A DNA stretch of 64,000 nucleotides from Blautia pseudococcoides. GTDB taxonomy: Bacteria; Bacillota; Clostridia; Lachnospirales; Lachnospiraceae. The stretch lies in NCBI RefSeq assembly GCF_001689125.2, contig NZ_CP015405.2:2769001-2833000 (forward strand), in the 5' to 3' direction. The notes beneath the pieces were generated by a model. It was not told where the DNA came from. It worked only from the letters and a program-made list of their open reading frames with translations, and did not search any database. Each line of letters opens with the position of its first letter. Positions within the stretch are counted from its first letter, which is position 1. Below, piece by piece: positions 25,083-50,042 of this stretch. A program made the translations under genes and the position numbers.

Positions 25083-25178
25083 AAAAAAAGCCCACGCTCT
25101 GAACATACTTGCCCAGACGGTCGGCTTCCTACGCTTATACTCCCTGTGGTTCATTCCACTTCCGTCAGTCATATAAGC
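25083..25178 (-). promoter_or_regulatory. ZTP (pfl) riboswitch with overlapping terminator
   Basis: The minus-strand RNA reads GACTGACGG, GTGGAATGAACCAC (hairpin), AGGGAG, then GCCGACCGTCTGGGC. These are the conserved parts of the ZTP/ZMP aptamer. GACGG and CCGTC pair in place of the usual GGCG/CGCC, a compensatory change. The aptamer's 3' half overlaps a stem ending in GTGGGC and seven T (25089-25083), so ligand binding should prevent termination. The genes controlled use ZMP (AICAR). Confidence 0.9.
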
Positions 25179-25185
25179 AATTTAA

Positions 25186-29064: not shown

Positions 29065-29718
29065 TTACTTCCTTTCCCTAAGAATCTCCCTCAGTTTTTC
29101 TGTTACTGCCCCGGCAAGCGCTCTGTGCCCCTCCACATCCAAATGGACGGCATCCTGGGCGCAGGGCAGTGTCACTGCCGCGGCATCTAAAAAAGCACAG
29201 CCCTGCCGCCTGGCAGCCTCTCTGTAATAACCTGCCAGTTCCTTTGAGATCCGCACTGCCCTCTCCCCGCCGAACATGGGGGAAAATTGGTGGCTTAGGA
29301 TCTCCTCTCTGATCTTCAAAGGAGAAATCAGCAAAATCTTTGGCACCGGCTCCTGTTTTTCCCGAAAATACATCTTTATGGTTTTAACCAGTTTCTCCGC
29401 ACCTGCAGCCACATCAGCGGCAGTCAGGGAAAATCTCTGTTTTAGATCATTTGTCCCCAGCATCAATACCACCACATCCAGGGGACTGTGGCTTTCCAGA
29501 CAGGGAATCAGGTATTTCAGTCCGTTTTTCATACCTTCAATAGGGTCTTCCCAGACGGTTGTCCTCCCATTTTGTCCTTCCTCGATGATCCGGACCCCTT
29601 CCTCCCTCAAAGCCTCCTGCACCAGACTGGTCCAGCGCACGCCCCAGGGGAAACGGTTACCGGTCACACCGTCATACCCATGGGTATTGGAATCTCCATA
29701 ACATAATACATTTTTCAT
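29065..29718 (-). CDS. SGNH/GDSL-family esterase
   Basis: 217 residues. Block I is [14 protein letters not shown] (catalytic Ser), block [17 protein letters not shown] (Gly, Asn), and block [10 protein letters not shown] (Asp-His). No signal peptide is seen, so it is probably cytosolic. Related proteins act as acyl or aryl esterases. It lies 5 bases upstream of map and just after an acetyltransferase gene, so it is part of a tightly packed operon. Confidence 0.88.
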
Positions 29719-29721
29719 CTT

Positions 29722-30264
29722 TTATTTCTCCATTGCCTCATATTCTTCTCTTGTGATGCGAAACAGGTAATGGGGCATATGGATCCCATAGTAATACTTC
29801 ACAAAGGAACCTGCCATTTTCATACCGTTTCTCTTCGCCACACTCTGGGATGCAGTGTTATTATCCCGGATGACAGAATATACCTCCTCTGCCTTTAATA
29901 CCTCAAAGGCATGATCCCTGCAGGCCCTGGCCGCCTCTGTAGCGTATCCATGGTGCCAGAACTCCTTGCAGAATAAATACCCCACCTCCATCACCTGTTT
30001 TCCCTCACAGTCCTGCATGGTAAGGCCGCACTGTCCGATGAATTCTCCCGTCTCCTTTAAGATAACTGCCCATAGTCCGAAACCATACTGCCTGTAGCGC
30101 TCCAGCTGTCTTTTAAGCCAATCCCGGGCCTCCTGGTCAGTAAAGGCATGGGCATAGGCATACATAACTTCCGGGTCCTGCAGCATTTTGTTCAAAGATG
30201 CCTGGTCCTCCCAGCTCAGCTTTCTGAGCACAAGGCGCTCTGTCTTTAGTACGGTGTCTTTCAT
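29722..30264 (-). CDS. GNAT acetyltransferase, RimJ/RimL type
   Basis: 180 residues. The start MKDTVLKTERLVLRKLSWED is typical of ribosomal-protein-acetyltransferase-like GNATs. EVGYLFCKEFWHHGYATEAARA is read as the acetyl-CoA motif (HHGYATEA), and NTASQSVAKRNGMK as the last conserved helix. It acetylates an unknown amine. The start codon overlaps the stop of the preceding acetyltransferase by 4 bases. Confidence 0.88.
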   Translation of the reverse strand: MKDTVLKTERLVLRKLSWEDQASLNKMLQDPEVMYAYAHAFTDQEARDWLKRQLERYRQYGFGLWAVILKETGEFIGQCGLTMQDCEGKQVMEVGYLFCKEFWHHGYATEAARACRDHAFEVLKAEEVYSVIRDNNTASQSVAKRNGMKMAGSFVKYYYGIHMPHYLFRITREEYEAMEK

Positions 30265-30764
30265 GCTTTCCTCTCCCTCTGGTATGCCATCCTCGGTGTT
30301 CCGTCTTCCATATATACCGTTCCGCAGGGAAGGAAACCGTTTTTTTCAAATACTCTCTGCATGGTTTTATTATCCTTATGTGTATCCCCCCGCATATTAC
30401 TGCACCGGGTCAGACACCACTGTACACAAAAGGAAGCCACACCTTTTTTTCTCCCGGCAGAGGCGATCCGGTGCAGGAATCCATATGGCTCCTCATTTAA
30501 CCAGCAGCCGTTCTCTATCTTTCGGTAATTTGGCTCTTCCCCTATATCGAACATGAAAACGCCTTCTGTTCCATCCGATGACTCACAGATGTATAAGACG
30601 CTGCGGTTCAAATCCTTTTCCACATCTTCCTGTGCCGGATAACCGTTTACCCACTGTCCGGGGTTCCCGTTTTTAGCCATGTACTCTCTTGCCTGTTCAT
30701 ATAAGGCCACGACTTCCTCTATATCTTCTTCCTTTGCTCTGCGAATATGAAATACTGTTTCCAT
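30261..30764 (-). CDS. GNAT-family acetyltransferase
   Basis: 167 residues, start METVFHIRRAKEEDIEEV. AGRKKGVASFCVQWC replaces the more usual Gly-rich CoA loop, and DNKTMQRVFEKNGF is the conserved C-terminal segment. ATG 30764 has GGAGATAGG before it. It is first gene of the GNAT-GNAT-SGNH-map-peptidase run, which is tightly packed. The substrate is unknown. Confidence 0.82.
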   Translation of the reverse strand: METVFHIRRAKEEDIEEVVALYEQAREYMAKNGNPGQWVNGYPAQEDVEKDLNRSVLYICESSDGTEGVFMFDIGEEPNYRKIENGCWLNEEPYGFLHRIASAGRKKGVASFCVQWCLTRCSNMRGDTHKDNKTMQRVFEKNGFLPCGTVYMEDGTPRMAYQRERKA

Positions 30765-31043
30765 TGATCCTATCTCCTTAAAGTGCACCGCAGCCAGACA
30801 GCTATCCCATCGCCATGGACGAAATGGAATTTTGCTCATGACCGGGAAGGCACTGCACAGTTACCTTTATCTGTAAAATGACTACGCACAGTATAACACG
30901 ATTTTTTCTGTTTTTCCACATGACCCACACGATTTATCAAAAGTTCCTGTTGTTTAAATTCTTTATAATTTTCAGATAATAATATAATTTTCAGTATCTT
31001 TACAGTTATAAATATTTTAATTTACAAATTATCATTTTACTTC

Positions 31044-31072
31044 TTGACAAGCCAAAACATGACTGTTATAAT
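31044..31072 (+). promoter_or_regulatory. Consensus sigma-A promoter for a non-coding transcript
   Basis: TTGACA (31044-31049), exactly 17 bases, TATAAT (31067-31072). No protein gene follows on this strand before the terminator at 31242-31282. Confidence 0.85.
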
Positions 31073-31078
31073 AAAGCC

Positions 31079-31290
31079 ATAAACAAAGAGAGAACAAAAT
31101 AAAAACAGAAAGGACTGATACCACCGAAAACGTAAATGAACATTCATAATACAAAAGAAAGGAAGGTACGGACCACCAAGAACTTAACGATTTAACCCAT
31201 AATAAAACAAGGAAGGTAAAGTCCCATGGACACATCAGTTTAAAAGAGTCATTCGGAATGTAAACTTCGGATGACTCTTTCCTATTGCTT
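31079..31290 (+). ncRNA. Candidate ~210-nt non-coding RNA with three ~50-nt repeats
   Basis: The interval between a perfect promoter and a strong hairpin terminator has no open frame above 19 codons with a ribosome site. It contains three diverged repeats starting at about 31108, 31157 and 31207. Each begins GAAAGGA or CAAGGAAGG; the first two then carry CCACC, an AAC-TAA segment and CATAATA with an A-rich tail. This layout (promoter, short tandem repeats, terminator) resembles repeat-containing antitoxin RNAs, but no toxin gene is adjacent. AAGGA motifs could also be protein-binding sites. Function unknown. Confidence 0.6.
31242..31282 (+). terminator. Terminator of the candidate ncRNA
   Basis: AAAGAGTCATTCG pairs with CGGATGACTCTTT (13 bp, one G-U), with a TTT-CCTATT tail. 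Confidence 0.75.
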
Positions 31291-31310
31291 ATATTTCTTT
31301 TTATAATAGC

Positions 31311-31341
31311 AAAAACCCTTCAGGATGACTCCCAAAGGGTT
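31311..31341 (-). terminator. Terminator of the first rubrerythrin gene
   Basis: AAACCCTT and AAGGGTTT stem on the minus strand, followed by TT-rich sequence. Confidence 0.65.
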
Positions 31342-31366
31342 TGAGTATATCTATTGAATCCCATCT

Positions 31367-31963
31367 CTAATGTGAAAACGGTGAAAGCTCCAGACGGATG
31401 AAATAGCCCTGGTCATGGGAACATACCGGACATTGTTTGGGCGCTTCTTTGCCCCAGTGGATATAACCGCATTTCAGGCAGATCCAGCCAGTCTCCACAT
31501 CGGATACAAAAAGCTTCTGATCCTCCATATACTGGGCAAACTTGCCAAAACGGTCACCATGGGTTTTCTCAATATCTGCAATCATGTGGAAAGAATTAGC
31601 GATCTGCAGGAATCCTTCCTCTTTTGCTTTATCTCCGAAGTTCTTATACACGTCATCATGCTCTTCGTATTCATTGTGCTGCGCCATGCGCAGGAGCTTA
31701 TCTATATCAGGAGAGATATCTACCGGATATCCGCCGTCAATCTGGATCGTTTCCCCTGCCATCTCTTTTAAATGCTGGTAAAAAATGTAGGCATGCTGAC
31801 GCTCCTGGTCAGCCGTGTAGCTGAAAACAGCCTCCACCACATGCAGATGTTCTTTTTTTGCCTGAGACGCGGCAAAGGTGTAGCGGTTTCTGGCCTGGCT
31901 CTCACCTGCAAAGGCACGCATCAGGTTCTCTTTTGTTACGCTTTCTCTAAAATCTACAGACAT
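31367..31963 (-). CDS. Rubrerythrin
   Basis: 198 residues. The N-terminal ferritin-like di-iron domain has ESQARNRYTF, DQERQHAYIF and EKTHGDRF ligands. The C-terminal rubredoxin domain has CLKCGYIHWG and CPVCSHDQGYF. It reduces hydrogen peroxide in anaerobes. The ATG is preceded by a purine-rich site (AGGAGG-like). It is one of two rubrerythrins in this window. Confidence 0.94.
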   Translation of the reverse strand: MSVDFRESVTKENLMRAFAGESQARNRYTFAASQAKKEHLHVVEAVFSYTADQERQHAYIFYQHLKEMAGETIQIDGGYPVDISPDIDKLLRMAQHNEYEEHDDVYKNFGDKAKEEGFLQIANSFHMIADIEKTHGDRFGKFAQYMEDQKLFVSDVETGWICLKCGYIHWGKEAPKQCPVCSHDQGYFIRLELSPFSH

Positions 31964-32041
31964 ACAATTGCCTCCTGGAATTTATTTTCCATGTTATTTT
32001 TTCCAGAAGTTTCAAATTTATACCTGCATCTTACAGCCTTC

Positions 32042-32641
32042 TTAAATGGTATGATAGAGGGCAGTCAGGATCTCCAGAATCTGTTCCCTGGAAAAACGGC
32101 TGCTGTCCAGACATAGATCATAGCCTTTCATGCTGCCCCACTTCTCATCCGTGTAATTGTTATAGTAATATTTTCTCTGTTTGTCTACCTTTTTGATAAG
32201 CTGCTCTGCGCCTCTTTCATCCCATACGGTCCGCGCCCGGATGGTTTTGACCCTGGACTCCATAGAAGCATAGATAAAGACACTTCTGCAGTCCGGTTTA
32301 TCTCTGAGAATATAATTTGCGCACCGTCCTACGATCACGCAGTCTTCCTTCCCGGCCGCCTCCTCGATGATCTCTGTCTGTACATGGAACAGCACATCAT
32401 TGAGAGGCTCATAGTGAAACTGCCGCTCCATAGCCATATTCTCATCAAAAGAATAACGCCAGGGGCTTTCCCTCTTCTCGTCTACTTCCTCCAGCTTCTC
32501 CTTCGGAAGGTTCTTTTTCTGGGCTGCAAGGGTGATCAAATCTTTATCATAATAATTGATACCCAGGTGCTCTGCCAGATCCTGCGCGATTTTTCTGCCA
32601 TTGCTTCCAAATTCCCTGCCAAGTGCTATCACTTTACCCAT
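32042..32641 (-). CDS. Cytidylate-kinase-like P-loop protein
   Basis: 199 residues. IALGREFGSNGRKIAQDLAE is read as the modified Walker A loop (REFGSNGRKI), followed by YYDKDLI, VIVGRCANYILRD and a C-terminal helix. It matches the 'cytidylate kinase-like family' often found in Firmicutes, whose substrate is not established. ATG 32641 is chosen (GGAAGG upstream); an ATG ten codons earlier is possible. Monocistronic. Confidence 0.82.
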   Translation of the reverse strand: MGKVIALGREFGSNGRKIAQDLAEHLGINYYDKDLITLAAQKKNLPKEKLEEVDEKRESPWRYSFDENMAMERQFHYEPLNDVLFHVQTEIIEEAAGKEDCVIVGRCANYILRDKPDCRSVFIYASMESRVKTIRARTVWDERGAEQLIKKVDKQRKYYYNNYTDEKWGSMKGYDLCLDSSRFSREQILEILTALYHTI

Positions 32642-32741
32642 AATATACCATCCTTCCCTATTTACATACATATATAGTTCCTGTCTTAATTATACAAAAT
32701 TTTTACAACTTTTACAACTTTTTTCAGACAGAATATACCTC

Positions 32742-34202
32742 CTATTTCTCGCGGCTTTTCTCCGATATATCTGTCTGTGCAGGACCGTCCACACAGTGCC
32801 CCCTATAGTCAAACCGGGAACCGTGGCAGGGGCATTCAAAACATTTTTCATCCGGATTCCATTCAAGCTGGCAGCCTAAATGGGGGCATTTTGCAGACAC
32901 CAGATAGACTTCGCCCTCCTCGTTCCTGTATGCCCCAACCTTTTCCCCGTCATAGTCCACAATACCCCCGTGTCCCTTTGGCAGCTCTTCCAAATCACCT
33001 CTGCCCTGTGTAAAGACCCTTCTGCTCAAATCCTTCACTGCATGTATGCTGTCCTTACAGAAGTTTCCGGCGGAAGCCTTTGGAGTAAAGCGCTGCGGGG
33101 AAAAGATGCCGAAGACTTCCTCATCCTCCCCCTCACCCAGAATACTCTCTGTTATCATACACGCGGCCGCCATGGAAGAACTCATCCCCCATTTTCCAAA
33201 TCCTGTGGCAGTGTACCAGCCGGGAGTCTCCGCCGAGTATCTGCCTATATACGGAATCTGGTCCATAGGCATACAATCCTGGGCTGACCATTGATACTGT
33301 ACCTGACTTTCCGGAAAGAACTCCCCCGCTTTTCTTTTCAGCAGCTCGTACTTACCTCCCACACGGTTCTCTCCGGTGCGGTGGCCGCCTCCGCCAAAAA
33401 GCAGGTACTCCCCGGCACTTCTGAAGGACCATGCATGGGCATTGTCTGTGCCCAGATACATTCCATGCAGCTTTGGTGCCTTATTCAGTCCCAGCACATA
33501 GCTGCGCTCCTGGTGCATCCGCATGAAATAATATCCCGGCACATTGAGGAATGGATAATGGCAGGCAAAGACAATTTTTTCTGCCCTGACACTCCCCTTA
33601 TCCGTCACAAGTCTGTCCCCCTCTGCCTGCAGCACTCTTGTATGCTCATAGACTGTCAGCCCGCAGGCAGCGGACTGCAGAAAAAGAAGAGGGTGAAACC
33701 GGGCCTGCTCTTCAAAACGCACAGCGCCTGCCACCTCAAAAGGAAGCTCTGTATCCTTCGTAAATACAGCATCAATCCCAAGGCCGGCAGCGCTTTTCGC
33801 CTCTTCTTTCAGCAGATCCGGTGTTTCCAGTGTATATAAATATGCCGGGCATCGGACAAAACCGCAGTTTATCTGCCTGTCATGTATCATTTTCTCGTAC
33901 CTGCCTATGGCCTTCTGGTTTTCTGCGGCGTATTTACCTGCGGCTTCCTCCCCGTGCTTTGCTAAAAGCTTCTGATAAATCACTCCGTGCTGGGAAGTGA
34001 TCTTGGCTGTTGTCTTCCCGGTCTGGCCGCCCCCGACCCTGTCCGCTTCCAGCACCACCACCTGCATTCCCTGTTCCGAAAGAAAATGCGCAGTCAGTAT
34101 TCCGGTCATCCCTCCGCCCACTACAGCCACATCTGCTGTAATATCCTTTGTCAGCTCCGGAAAACTCTGTATCTTTGTCTCATCCATCCATAAACTTGTC
34201 AT
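32742..34202 (-). CDS. FAD-dependent oxidoreductase (DAO family) with C-terminal Rieske domain
   Basis: 486 residues. The dinucleotide-binding motif VAVVGGGMTGILTAHFL is near residue 25, and TTAKITSQHG and GFGKWGMSSSMAAA belong to the DAO fold. The C-terminal Rieske domain (about 390-480) has CPHLGCQLEWN and CPCHGSRFD, the Cys-His pairs of a 2Fe-2S cluster. It transfers electrons from an unknown substrate. ATG 34202 has GGAGG 5 bases upstream. The open frame extends 73 codons further, but the terminator at 34373-34406 lies in that part, so it is not coding. Confidence 0.9.
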   Translation of the reverse strand: MTSLWMDETKIQSFPELTKDITADVAVVGGGMTGILTAHFLSEQGMQVVVLEADRVGGGQTGKTTAKITSQHGVIYQKLLAKHGEEAAGKYAAENQKAIGRYEKMIHDRQINCGFVRCPAYLYTLETPDLLKEEAKSAAGLGIDAVFTKDTELPFEVAGAVRFEEQARFHPLLFLQSAACGLTVYEHTRVLQAEGDRLVTDKGSVRAEKIVFACHYPFLNVPGYYFMRMHQERSYVLGLNKAPKLHGMYLGTDNAHAWSFRSAGEYLLFGGGGHRTGENRVGGKYELLKRKAGEFFPESQVQYQWSAQDCMPMDQIPYIGRYSAETPGWYTATGFGKWGMSSSMAAACMITESILGEGEDEEVFGIFSPQRFTPKASAGNFCKDSIHAVKDLSRRVFTQGRGDLEELPKGHGGIVDYDGEKVGAYRNEEGEVYLVSAKCPHLGCQLEWNPDEKCFECPCHGSRFDYRGHCVDGPAQTDISEKSREK

Positions 34203-37059: not shown

Positions 37060-37356
37060 AGCATTTAGATAAATGCGGTGACGGGGAGGAGTACATACCC
37101 AGCCGGCTTTCAGAGAGAAGATGTTTGGTGTGAATCTTCAGCTAGGAAGTATGGAAGTAGCCCCTGAGCAGTGAGCCGAACAGAGACAGGATATCTCTTA
37201 GTAGACCTCAACGTCCCTTTCCCACGTTACAGGGAAAACAGTATCGATATCCTTACGATCATCTGTACTGGCAAAGCGCAGGATTTTTCCTGAAATCAGG
37301 TGGTACCACGGATGACTTATCCGCCCTGAACTGAATTCTCAGTTCAGGGCGTTTTT
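37060..37356 (+). promoter_or_regulatory. T-box riboswitch controlling ilvB-ilvN
   Basis: The T-box sequence AGGTGGTACCACGG (37298-37311) pairs with an uncharged tRNA acceptor end. Stem I carries the AGAGAG and GGTGTGAA distal elements and a GGAA-GTA-GCCCC segment, from which a valine specifier (GTA) is the best reading. The terminator is a 13-bp stem (37322-37334 with 37339-37351) and T5. It fits amino-acid control of branched-chain synthesis. The specifier call is tentative. Confidence 0.92.
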
Positions 37357-48133: not shown

Positions 48134-50042
48134 GTAGAGTAGGCGAGTGATATTTTCACTCGCCCCTCATCAAACCGTGCATGAGGTTCTCCCTCACACG
48201 GCTTTCCGACATTCTTCTTTCTACAGCATTACGTCATGCGCTAGCCATTTTCTTTAGTCCTTTTTCGCAAATACTTTTTCTAACAAAGCCTACCTTAGAC
48301 ATATGATTTCGTCTTTGGTGTTTCTTGTTATACCATCTTGTAAAGGTGCAGATAATATACCAATCCAGTGCCAGCATCCATTTTTCGTTAGTTTTGGTTG
48401 AATAATAATTCTTCCATCCTGTGATTTTCGGATTTAGATTTTTAATTAAATCTTCTTCCTTTGCAACCAGCATGCATCGGTTATTAACATTCCTTTTGAT
48501 TTCTGCTTTCATCTTCTTCATGGCTTTTTTGCTTGGGTACTGGTATGTTTCTTTATACAGTTGCCCTTTGCTTGTTTCCGTTGTCATTCTTCTGTGGTGC
48601 ATACCAAGAAAATCAAATCCTTCTTTACCATCCCACATACTGACAATTTTTGTTTTCACTGGATGTATCTTTAAATCCAGTTTTCCCATGATGTATTGAA
48701 GCAGATTCAGTGCATGATTTGCACTTTTCTTGTTCTTACAGATAACCACTGTGTCATCTGCGTACCTTACAAGAATTCCATGAGTAAGTCCATACTTTTC
48801 CCATAGTCTGTCTAGTGTATTTAGGTAGATATTTGCCAGTAACGGAGATATCACCGAACCTTGGGCTGTTCCTAATTCAGAGACTGTTAGGATATTTCCA
48901 TACAGTATCCCTGACTTAAGCCACTGTCTTATCAGTTTCAGAATTCTTCTGTCCGATATGCGTTGTTCCACAAGCAACATCAGTTTATCTTGGTTTACGT
49001 TATCAAAGAACTTTTCGATATCTGCATCTACTACATAATAGCCTTTGTTGTTACATGCTTTTCTTACCACCTCTAGTGCTTGTTTTGCACTTCTTTTTGG
49101 TCTGAATCCATAGGAACAATCTCTAAAGTCAGCTTCGAATACTGGCTCTATCGCTATCTTTGTAGCCATCTGCACAATTCTGTCCTTAACCGTTGGTATT
49201 CCAAGTGGTCTTTCACTTCCGTCTGGTTTTGGTATCATGACACGTTTTACTGGGAATGGTTTGTATTTTCCATCCATCAGTTCCGATTTGATTTCTGTTA
49301 GGTATTTCTCAATCCCCATCGTCTCAATATTTTCGATACTGATACCATCTACACCACTAGAACCTTTGTTAGCTTTTACTCGTTTCCATGCTTCGAAAAG
49401 CACATCATCCCGATATACTTTATCGTATAGTGCATGGAATCTTCGGCTATCACATTTCTTGGCTGTCAGATATAGTTTGTTTTGAAGTTGTCGAACTTTT
49501 TCTTTGGAGTTGTTAGTATTCATTACATTCTCTCACTCTTACCCTCTCTACAAACATGAATGAAGCAGGGAACCTTTCCATAGACTGCGTTTTCTTGCAC
49601 AGTCATTATCGGTACTATGTTCCCCTCCGACTCCCTCCCATCAGAAATACGACTTCGCCAAGCTTATACGCTTTCTCTTTACCTTTCGGTGATGGGTAGG
49701 GTCTCTCCAGTTCCGAACCACACTTTTCATACATACCGCTTCCTCTATACCGAGGGATTCCTCCGTGTTGCTTTCCAGTATCTTCACACGTTCCATGGTT
49801 TTCGCCCATATACCCAAGGCTCAACTTCCCTTTGTTCTCTTTCGAGACCTTTTTTTAACGATACGGCAGAATTCACTTTATGTTACGGTCTGCATGATTG
49901 CTCGCTCCCTTATCGGGTTACTTTATCCACTCGCTTAGCACCCTGTATTACTACAACGCACCGAGTTTAGCTACACGGCTCACTGGCGATTACCGTGACC
50001 GGACTTACACCGGCAAGTGTGGTACAGCTTCGCTGGACACAC
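48134..50042 (-). mobile_element. Group II intron, about 1.9 kb
   Basis: The 5' end GTGTGTCC (minus strand from 50042) and about 520 nt of ribozyme sequence precede the maturase gene. Behind it comes domain V, with GAAAGCCGTGTGAGG opposite CCTCATGCACGGTTT (the AGC triad present), and a domain VI hairpin ending near CTACTCTAC. The 5' exon is a hairpin (GCAAGC/GCTTGC) with TATTTTTGCG, so the intron sits just after a terminator-like motif. Ends are accurate to a few bases. It is inserted in relics of a conjugative element. Confidence 0.85.
48234..49523 (-). CDS. ltrA: Group II intron reverse transcriptase/maturase
   Basis: 429 residues. RT motifs include GVDGISIENIE, PLGIPTVKDRIVQMA, the YGFRP motif, VVDADIEKFFDNVN, GTAQGSVISPLLANIYL and the catalytic RYADD. 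A maturase (X) domain follows (KITGWKNYYS). There is no clear HNH endonuclease domain after it, so the element would depend on nicks or single-stranded target DNA. Intact, so the intron may be mobile. It begins about 520 nt inside the intron. Confidence 0.95.
   Translation of the reverse strand: MNTNNSKEKVRQLQNKLYLTAKKCDSRRFHALYDKVYRDDVLFEAWKRVKANKGSSGVDGISIENIETMGIEKYLTEIKSELMDGKYKPFPVKRVMIPKPDGSERPLGIPTVKDRIVQMATKIAIEPVFEADFRDCSYGFRPKRSAKQALEVVRKACNNKGYYVVDADIEKFFDNVNQDKLMLLVEQRISDRRILKLIRQWLKSGILYGNILTVSELGTAQGSVISPLLANIYLNTLDRLWEKYGLTHGILVRYADDTVVICKNKKSANHALNLLQYIMGKLDLKIHPVKTKIVSMWDGKEGFDFLGMHHRRMTTETSKGQLYKETYQYPSKKAMKKMKAEIKRNVNNRCMLVAKEEDLIKNLNPKITGWKNYYSTKTNEKWMLALDWYIICTFTRWYNKKHQRRNHMSKVGFVRKSICEKGLKKMASA

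Follow-up and report, generated by a model that had tools for sequence, protein, structure and literature searches.

Tandem putative ribosome-binding modules in a conserved predicted RNA family of Lachnospiraceae

We found by comparison with related genomes that a predicted small RNA of Blautia pseudococcoides is a string of putative ribosome-binding modules, and that it belongs to a family conserved in Lachnospiraceae; other families of the same class have related modules. The RNA lies in a 64,000-nt stretch of contig NZ_CP015405.2 (the window), to which all coordinates refer. At the level of sequence, the comparison establishes promoter and terminator sequences, the anatomy of the modules, a genetic-code signature, the strength of the Shine-Dalgarno (SD) sites, their spacing and their spread. 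This anatomy is strongly supported, and from it we infer expression and function. We propose that the RNA may act in trans, with start-less SDs as docking sites for 30S subunits or ribosomes and mini-ORFs through which these are recycled, a reading that we hold to be nearly an even call.

Promoter, modules and terminator of the window RNA

The window RNA comprises the following features, all on the forward strand.

31044..31072 (+), promoter: -35 TTGACA at 31044-31049, 17-nt spacer, extended -10 TATAAT at 31067-31072; 12/12 match to sigma-70
31079..31285 (+), predicted transcript of ~205 nt, with a presumed start 7 nt past the -10
31107..31135 (+), module R1, a variant first module: SD-like AGAAAGGA, then CUGAUACCA, start-less CCG, AAA, ACG, UAA; seen in the alignments
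31155..31187 (+), module R2: SD AGAAAGGA-AGGU, core AGGUACGGACCA at 31164-31175, start-less CCA at 31176-31178, AGA, ACU, UAA at 31185-31187; module model E 1.4e-7
31207..31243 (+), module R3, the last: SD AAGGAAGG at 31209-31216, spacer, AUG; module model E 3.8e-6
31226..31243 (+), mini-ORF AUG GAC ACA UCA GUU UAA (MDTSV*); counterpart in 19/19 genus loci
31243..31280 (+), intrinsic terminator hairpin: 15 pairs, 8-nt loop, T-rich stretch 3'; supported by covariation

An earlier, sequence-only reading had pointed to a consensus TTGACA-17-TATAAT promoter, and we found that this site, whose -10 is preceded by TG, is indeed perfect: positions 29500-33000 contain 12 promoter-like sites, and no other scores 12/12. 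Shuffles of that interval gave a mean of 6.2 promoter-like sites of any quality. The promoter matches at 10-12/12 positions in the 18 genus loci that hold the region, and locus L014 ends at a contig end there. The hairpin terminator named in the same reading is borne out as well: across 19 genus sequences, 97.6% of the cells of its stem are paired, with 28 double-change cells and a covariation score of 0.358. No shuffle matched any of these three measures (0/500 each), and slid controls were 31-53% paired. Coarser measures of the stem were no better than shuffles, namely 5 pairs with a double change (reached by 171/500) and 10 further pair types (reached by 410/500). Outside the terminator we found no supported structure: RNAalifold gives short pairs that are invariant or vary on one side only, and the single-sequence fold has z = -2.85 with the terminator included. 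We dropped a reading as a structured RNA, as no pairs with double changes occur beyond the terminator.

The five nearest genes (GNAT, GNAT, rubrerythrin, cytidylate-kinase-like and GDSL) are all on the opposite strand; because the nearest of them, the two GNAT acetyltransferase genes and the rubrerythrin gene, are so oriented, the RNA stands alone. The next gene downstream is convergent (31367-31963, minus). A terminator-like hairpin at 31313-31342 (-), immediately downstream of the rubrerythrin gene, converges on the RNA's own terminator. The placement between a GNAT gene and rubrerythrin, which had been suggested as a guide to related loci, holds in part: among the 19 genus loci, some with short flanks, the nearer GNAT gene is kept in 9/19 and rubrerythrin in 3/19. 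In some other genera the neighbours appear to differ, being enolase-, phosphoglycerate mutase- or peptidase-like as recognised by eye.

The three ~50-nt degenerate repeats noticed in the window are real, with 80% identity over 20 nt (31149/31199) and 81% over 16 nt (31120/31172); every repeat has AAGGA, whereas only the first two contain CCACC and are followed by CATAATA, as had been described. Their SD duplex energies are -9.7 (R1), -13.8 (R2) and -8.7 kcal/mol (R3). The genus alignment (A1; 19/22 loci used, L025-L027 left out, orientation corrected) contains the conserved blocks AGAAAGGACUGAUACCACCRAAA (R1), GAAAGGAMGGUACGGACCACC (R2) and RAGGUANNNNCCMAUGGAY followed by a short ORF (R3), and little is conserved besides the modules, the 5' end and the terminator.

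The region had been described as being without a supported ORF, which our alignments contradict: R3 carries an ORF of 5 or 6 codons, alike in position, start and stop, in 19/19 genus loci (MDTSV, MDNEIR, MDTEIH etc.), and in the window its stop codon shares one base, 31243, with the start of the terminator stem. It had also been argued that a conserved small ORF might account for the region and undo the case for an RNA. The ORF is there and is conserved, but its 18 nt do not explain the whole element. A 19-codon ORF from ATG 31137 was rejected; this ATG is lost even in the near relative L007.

Module anatomy across relatives

A position matrix iterated over the loci yielded 320 distinct modules with the core A-G-G-U-A-C-R-G-W-C-C-A, in which GG is conserved at 90/99%, A at 96% and CC at 99%. 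Each module begins with an SD, followed by the conserved spacer UACRGWCCA (9 nt) and a triplet X; an in-frame stop then comes, as a rule, after two further codons. We examined 236 non-redundant modules (307 before clustering at 80%) in which only the part upstream of the codon position was scored; this leaves the triplet and the stop unselected, although the loci themselves came from models that include both. X was AUG in 85 modules, CCA in 69, AAG in 24, CCG in 20, UUG in 14, ACA in 8, AUC in 6, CCU in 3 and GUG in 2, with five singletons. A start codon (AUG/UUG/GUG) thus occupied X in 101/236 modules (~43%), and 135/236 were start-less. CUG was found 0 times versus 26.3 expected under independence, and UUG 14 times versus 4.5.

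We found that stops come early and in the frame of X. A stop by codon index 6 was present in frame 0 in 85/101 start modules (46 and 30 in frames 1 and 2); by index 3, it was in frame in 63/89 CCR modules (off-frame 13 and 6) and in 36/46 of the other start-less modules (off-frame 5 and 7). Shuffled tails gave 41.7, 23.4 and 10.7 for the three in-frame counts. At index 3, the start modules had 50, 43 and 17 stops in frames 0, 1 and 2, a contrast that is weak versus frame 1, which is raised partly because AUG-A reads UGA there. These in-frame early stops indicate that start-less modules, too, keep the SD-spacer-triplet-two codons-stop layout.

The SD duplex with the 16S tail ACCUCCUUUCU was stronger in the start-less classes (-12.5 and -12.2 kcal/mol) than in start modules (-10.1), against -5.1 to -5.8 for shuffled sequences, with the caveat that the SD positions are part of the matrix that selected the modules. 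For comparison, the 56 window genes at their best start had a mean of -9.3. The 16S 3' end was not found in the B. pseudococcoides assembly itself (G000), and the tail used is that of same-family rRNA: GGCUGGAUCACCUCCUUUCU matched in 5/60 family genomes, and each of the 4 loci inspected proved to be a 16S 3' end. R1, R2 and the 135/236 start-less modules combine a 16S-complementary SD with the lack of a standard start at working distance, a few of the 135 carrying near-cognate triplets such as AUC. We also considered an extended pairing of the spacer with 16S and rejected it. The real spacer beats shuffled ones in 223/236 modules, and CC is paired in 225/236 best duplexes, but in the 7-mer control equal pairing was reached by 2054 (AUG), 9154 (CCA) and 673 (AAG context) of 16384 7-mers. 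Since the pairing fails this control, a protein or RNA contact at UACRGWCCA is possible.

Module spacing is narrow. The 298 arrays yielded 273 distinct pairs of adjacent modules, whose spacing had a minimum of 41, a 5th percentile of 50 and a median of 55 nt, and 177/273 pairs fell at 50-59 nt in a scan that allowed 9 to 150 nt. Such a distance is close to the stretch of mRNA that an initiating 30S subunit covers. With modules about one footprint apart, all of them could be occupied together; the ~50-nt spacing could instead reflect descent from a duplicated unit. Of the 298 arrays, 168 had one detected module, 72 had two and 26 had three, with a largest array of ten; L065 has eleven when a longer gap is allowed. 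Long arrays of 8 to 11 detected modules occur in L065 (genome G175), L320 (Blautia wexlerae) and L265 (Anaerobutyricum hallii), and L065 repeats AUG-UAC-ACA-UAA several times. A subtype (L041, L045, L049, L057 and L098) has a longer 5' part, which in L041 and L045 contains an inverted repeat seen by eye, then one start-less and one start module; its last ORFs read MDSEVH, MDNESR, MDNGFK and LDNESI.

The last ORF at the terminator

We scanned 147 arrays and found a terminator in 124. The stop of the last detected ORF lay -9 to +3 nt from the stem in 62/124 of these, an undercount because in L019, L020, L023 and L024 the weak last module escaped the scan, although the genus alignment has its ORF; the median stop-to-stem distance over the 124 arrays was 0. 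The ORF of the last module often has 5-9 codons. Among 56 distinct terminal ORFs, the start was AUG in 38, UUG in 16 and GUG in 2, the stop UAA in 40, UAG in 14 and UGA in 2, and the second residue D or E in 49/56 (GAC 24, GAT 19, GAA 4, GAG 2). Starts and stops thus interchange within the genetic code and the frame is fixed to the SD, a pattern that points to a translated mini-ORF; together with the interchange of codons, it is hard to explain unless the terminal ORF is translated. Of the 147 arrays, 66 have a downstream ORF in the same orientation and 55 a convergent one; in the other 26 no downstream ORF was seen. This mixed orientation fits a role in trans and argues against a cis-acting attenuator.

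Spread of the family

Conservation in relatives had been set as a test of the RNA, and the element is conserved. A 281-base search found it in 19/20 Blautia genomes, B. pseudococcoides included; G006 was the miss. A sequence-only model of 19 sequences matched 90/397 sampled family genomes at E <= 1e-3, a number of them in tandem. We built a second model from 117 modules (alignment A2; 117/154 candidates, 37 mainly low-scoring or near-duplicate ones dropped by hand). It repeated the genus count of 19/20, with G006 (99% complete) again without the element, and in the order it matched 99/392 genomes at E <= 0.01, 81 of them in the family and 18, mostly weak, in other families. Two of those 18, from one genus of family f11, hold real AUG-type arrays (L164, L165). 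Family f8 is represented by single modules (L167-L171), whose frame is in most cases longer or unclear, and we do not claim single matches at E ~0.01 in other families of the order. At the level of the class, 53/391 genomes matched, of which 41 lie outside the order and the other 12 belong to the family; at that of the phylum, 3/348 did so at E <= 0.001, all three within the family. Among the matches listed for an exact 23-nt pattern in named genomes are Blautia hansenii, wexlerae, schinkii and parvula, Roseburia inulinivorans, Anaerobutyricum hallii, Mediterraneibacter, Sellimonas, Drancourtella and others.

The earlier suggestion of an undescribed small RNA gene or new class is supported. 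In Rfam, the window RNA had no match at the gathering score, and at E up to 10 its best hit had 20.2 bits versus a cut-off of 60. Searches of 33 relatives' loci gave no family match to the RNA, only T-box, tRNA and Gut-1 away from it, and over 15 representative loci the RNA was again without a match.

From 18 of the 41 matching genomes outside the order we took 20 regions, mostly the strongest. The module reads AUG, two codons, stop in 17/20 of them, with the stop one codon earlier in 1/20; in 2/20 (L229, L236) a longer frame starts at the AUG. Fifteen loci outside the order can be aligned as a related RNA: the module follows shortly after a conserved promoter, the middle varies in length, and an MLDIKSEQK-type last ORF has its stop next to the terminator in all 15 (by eye in L221 and L224; the start codon of L234 is uncertain). 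L233 has three mini-ORF modules before its MLDIKSEQK-type last ORF. These comparisons suggest that the AUG-type module may be older and the start-less triplets an elaboration of Lachnospiraceae. The related RNA of L218-L228 and L232-L235, from other families of the class, reaches ~500 nt, has no Rfam match, and runs from a 5' AUG mini-ORF module to a last ORF at the terminator; most of these loci also contain an ACACGRCGGUGU hairpin, AAUUCGCCUUUUG and a UUCUC-nnUA-GAGAA hairpin.

Proposed function and alternatives

In the proposed docking of ribosomes, the RNA would be transcribed from its perfect promoter and then occupied by ribosomes. Start-less modules (R1 and R2 here) would base-pair with the 3' end of 16S rRNA and retain 30S subunits in unproductive complexes; at AUG and UUG modules, bound ribosomes would initiate, stop almost at once, and leave. 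The net effect would be that initiation capacity is withheld or parked, and as a side effect the RNA would be shielded from RNases. Several points count against this proposal: with the 1-3 detected modules of most arrays, bulk titration would call for a very abundant RNA, the model cannot explain the conserved spacer UACRGWCCA, and one genus genome (G006) is without the element. The broader idea is that of a regulatory-RNA class, an array of landing SDs and stop-at-once mini-ORFs, one per footprint, that would set initiation capacity in gut Clostridia by holding and recycling 30S subunits; we advance it tentatively, as somewhat more doubtful than credible.

The strongest rival, which we nevertheless consider unlikely, is a stabiliser, in which a 30S subunit on the start-less SDs blocks 5'-3' decay and the real function of the RNA lies elsewhere. 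As described in PMC4113751, the STAB-SD of Bacillus thuringiensis cry3A is a start-less SD that binds 30S without initiating and stabilises the mRNA. The start-less SDs reported here fit that description, as SD-like sequences that would not initiate and can bind the 16S 3' end, and the first detected module core lies <=45 nt from the -10 in 52/140 arrays with a promoter found and <=100 nt in 108. Stabilisation, however, would need no more than one 5' SD, and some arrays have about ten modules; within the genus a separate function finds little conserved sequence apart from modules, 5' end and terminator. The STAB-SD of PMC4113751 occurs once, in the leader of an mRNA that encodes a protein; the window RNA has tandem modules, a conserved spacer, mini-ORFs and a terminator, with no gene in the same transcript.

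Protein titration, with an RNA-binding protein recognising AGGUACRGWCCA and the SD and codon features secondary, would fit the conservation of the spacer beyond SD needs (CC 99%, A 96%), which 16S pairing does not explain. It leaves the start/stop degeneracy and the frame unexplained, and we judge it distinctly unlikely. Titration through AAGGA had been suggested before: the repeated, functional-looking sites are real, but AAGGA is best read as an SD, and a CsrA sponge is rejected, as none of the 20 genus genomes has CsrA (0/20) in a search whose control was positive in 3/14 named genomes. Sponges of the CsrB/RsmZ type are multi-site RNAs that titrate a partner, and the window RNA, also multi-site, could do likewise. 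Unlike them, it is found in a genus without CsrA, and GGA is neither in all modules nor in supported hairpin loops.

Could the terminal acidic peptide (M-D-x-E-x type) itself be the product, with the upstream modules regulating it? The preference for D or E at the second residue (49/56), encoded by synonymous codons, speaks for such a mini-gene, but the peptides are variable (5-9 residues) and the abutting ORF was scored in only 62/124 arrays, albeit an undercount; we find this improbable. Minigenes such as lambda bar consist of an SD and an ORF of few codons. The terminal module resembles them in this, and differs in being arrayed in a chromosomal RNA family with start-less copies mixed in. 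A sponge for a C-rich regulatory RNA resembling the anti-SD is quite improbable: the SD-plus-spacer sites are repeated and predicted to be accessible, but a search of both strands of the own genome for the 12-nt core gave 6 occurrences, one in this RNA and five in apparent coding sequence (judged by eye), so that no antisense partner was found there at exact core match.

An attenuator, in which the adjacent terminator is disabled by a ribosome on the last ORF and polymerase runs on into the downstream gene, would suit the abutment of stop and stem (median distance 0 in 124 arrays), but is very improbable given that the next gene is convergent here and in 55 of the 121 arrays for which a downstream ORF was seen. 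Type III antitoxin RNAs (ToxI, TenpI, CptI) consist of a promoter, tandem repeats and a terminator. The window RNA shares this layout, and it had been taken for a possible orphan antitoxin, which is hardly credible: as was noted at the time, no toxin gene follows (no endoribonuclease gene directly downstream, none among the nearest five genes, none by PADLOC), no Rfam antitoxin matches, and the repeats have code-like features, an SD with start and stop codons, and no supported fold.

One further motif deserves comparison. TwoAYGGAY RNAs have two conserved hairpins with AYGGAY loops. The present family shares AYGGAY strings (AUGGAY, ACGGAC) and an origin in human gut and Clostridiales; unlike TwoAYGGAY, it has no pair of supported hairpins and no Rfam match, and many modules lack AYGGAY. 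PMC2864571 gives the motif by name in a table.

If the docking reading is right, a dedicated RNA of tandem landing sites, many of them start-less, would act on the bacterial ribosome pool. The principle is partly known from STAB-SD and minigenes; an RNA built as an array of them is apparently undescribed, and we found no description of ribosome-pool control by such an RNA in the open-licence literature searched, outside which most subscription journals lie. To our knowledge, ORFs of 2-9 codons, such as this family contains, are not normally reported by gene annotation. The gut genera with the RNA include Blautia, Roseburia, Anaerobutyricum and Mediterraneibacter, and even with the mechanism wrong, a conserved RNA of code-like anatomy needs explaining.

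Additional observations

The window also holds a T-box leader at 37069-37331 (+), a ZTP riboswitch at 25104-25182 (-) and two group II intron parts at 48134-50016 (-), all by Rfam. One Blautia genome (G010, contig 115) has a second, diverged copy of this RNA type (L025), and several family genomes have matches at 2-3 places. The only IMG/VR match of an exact module pattern is L244, 9199-12945, in which the RNA lies between an integrase-like gene, whose end is ~250 bp upstream, and a gpmI-like gene (both by eye); given this gene order, a prophage seemingly adjoins a host copy of the RNA.
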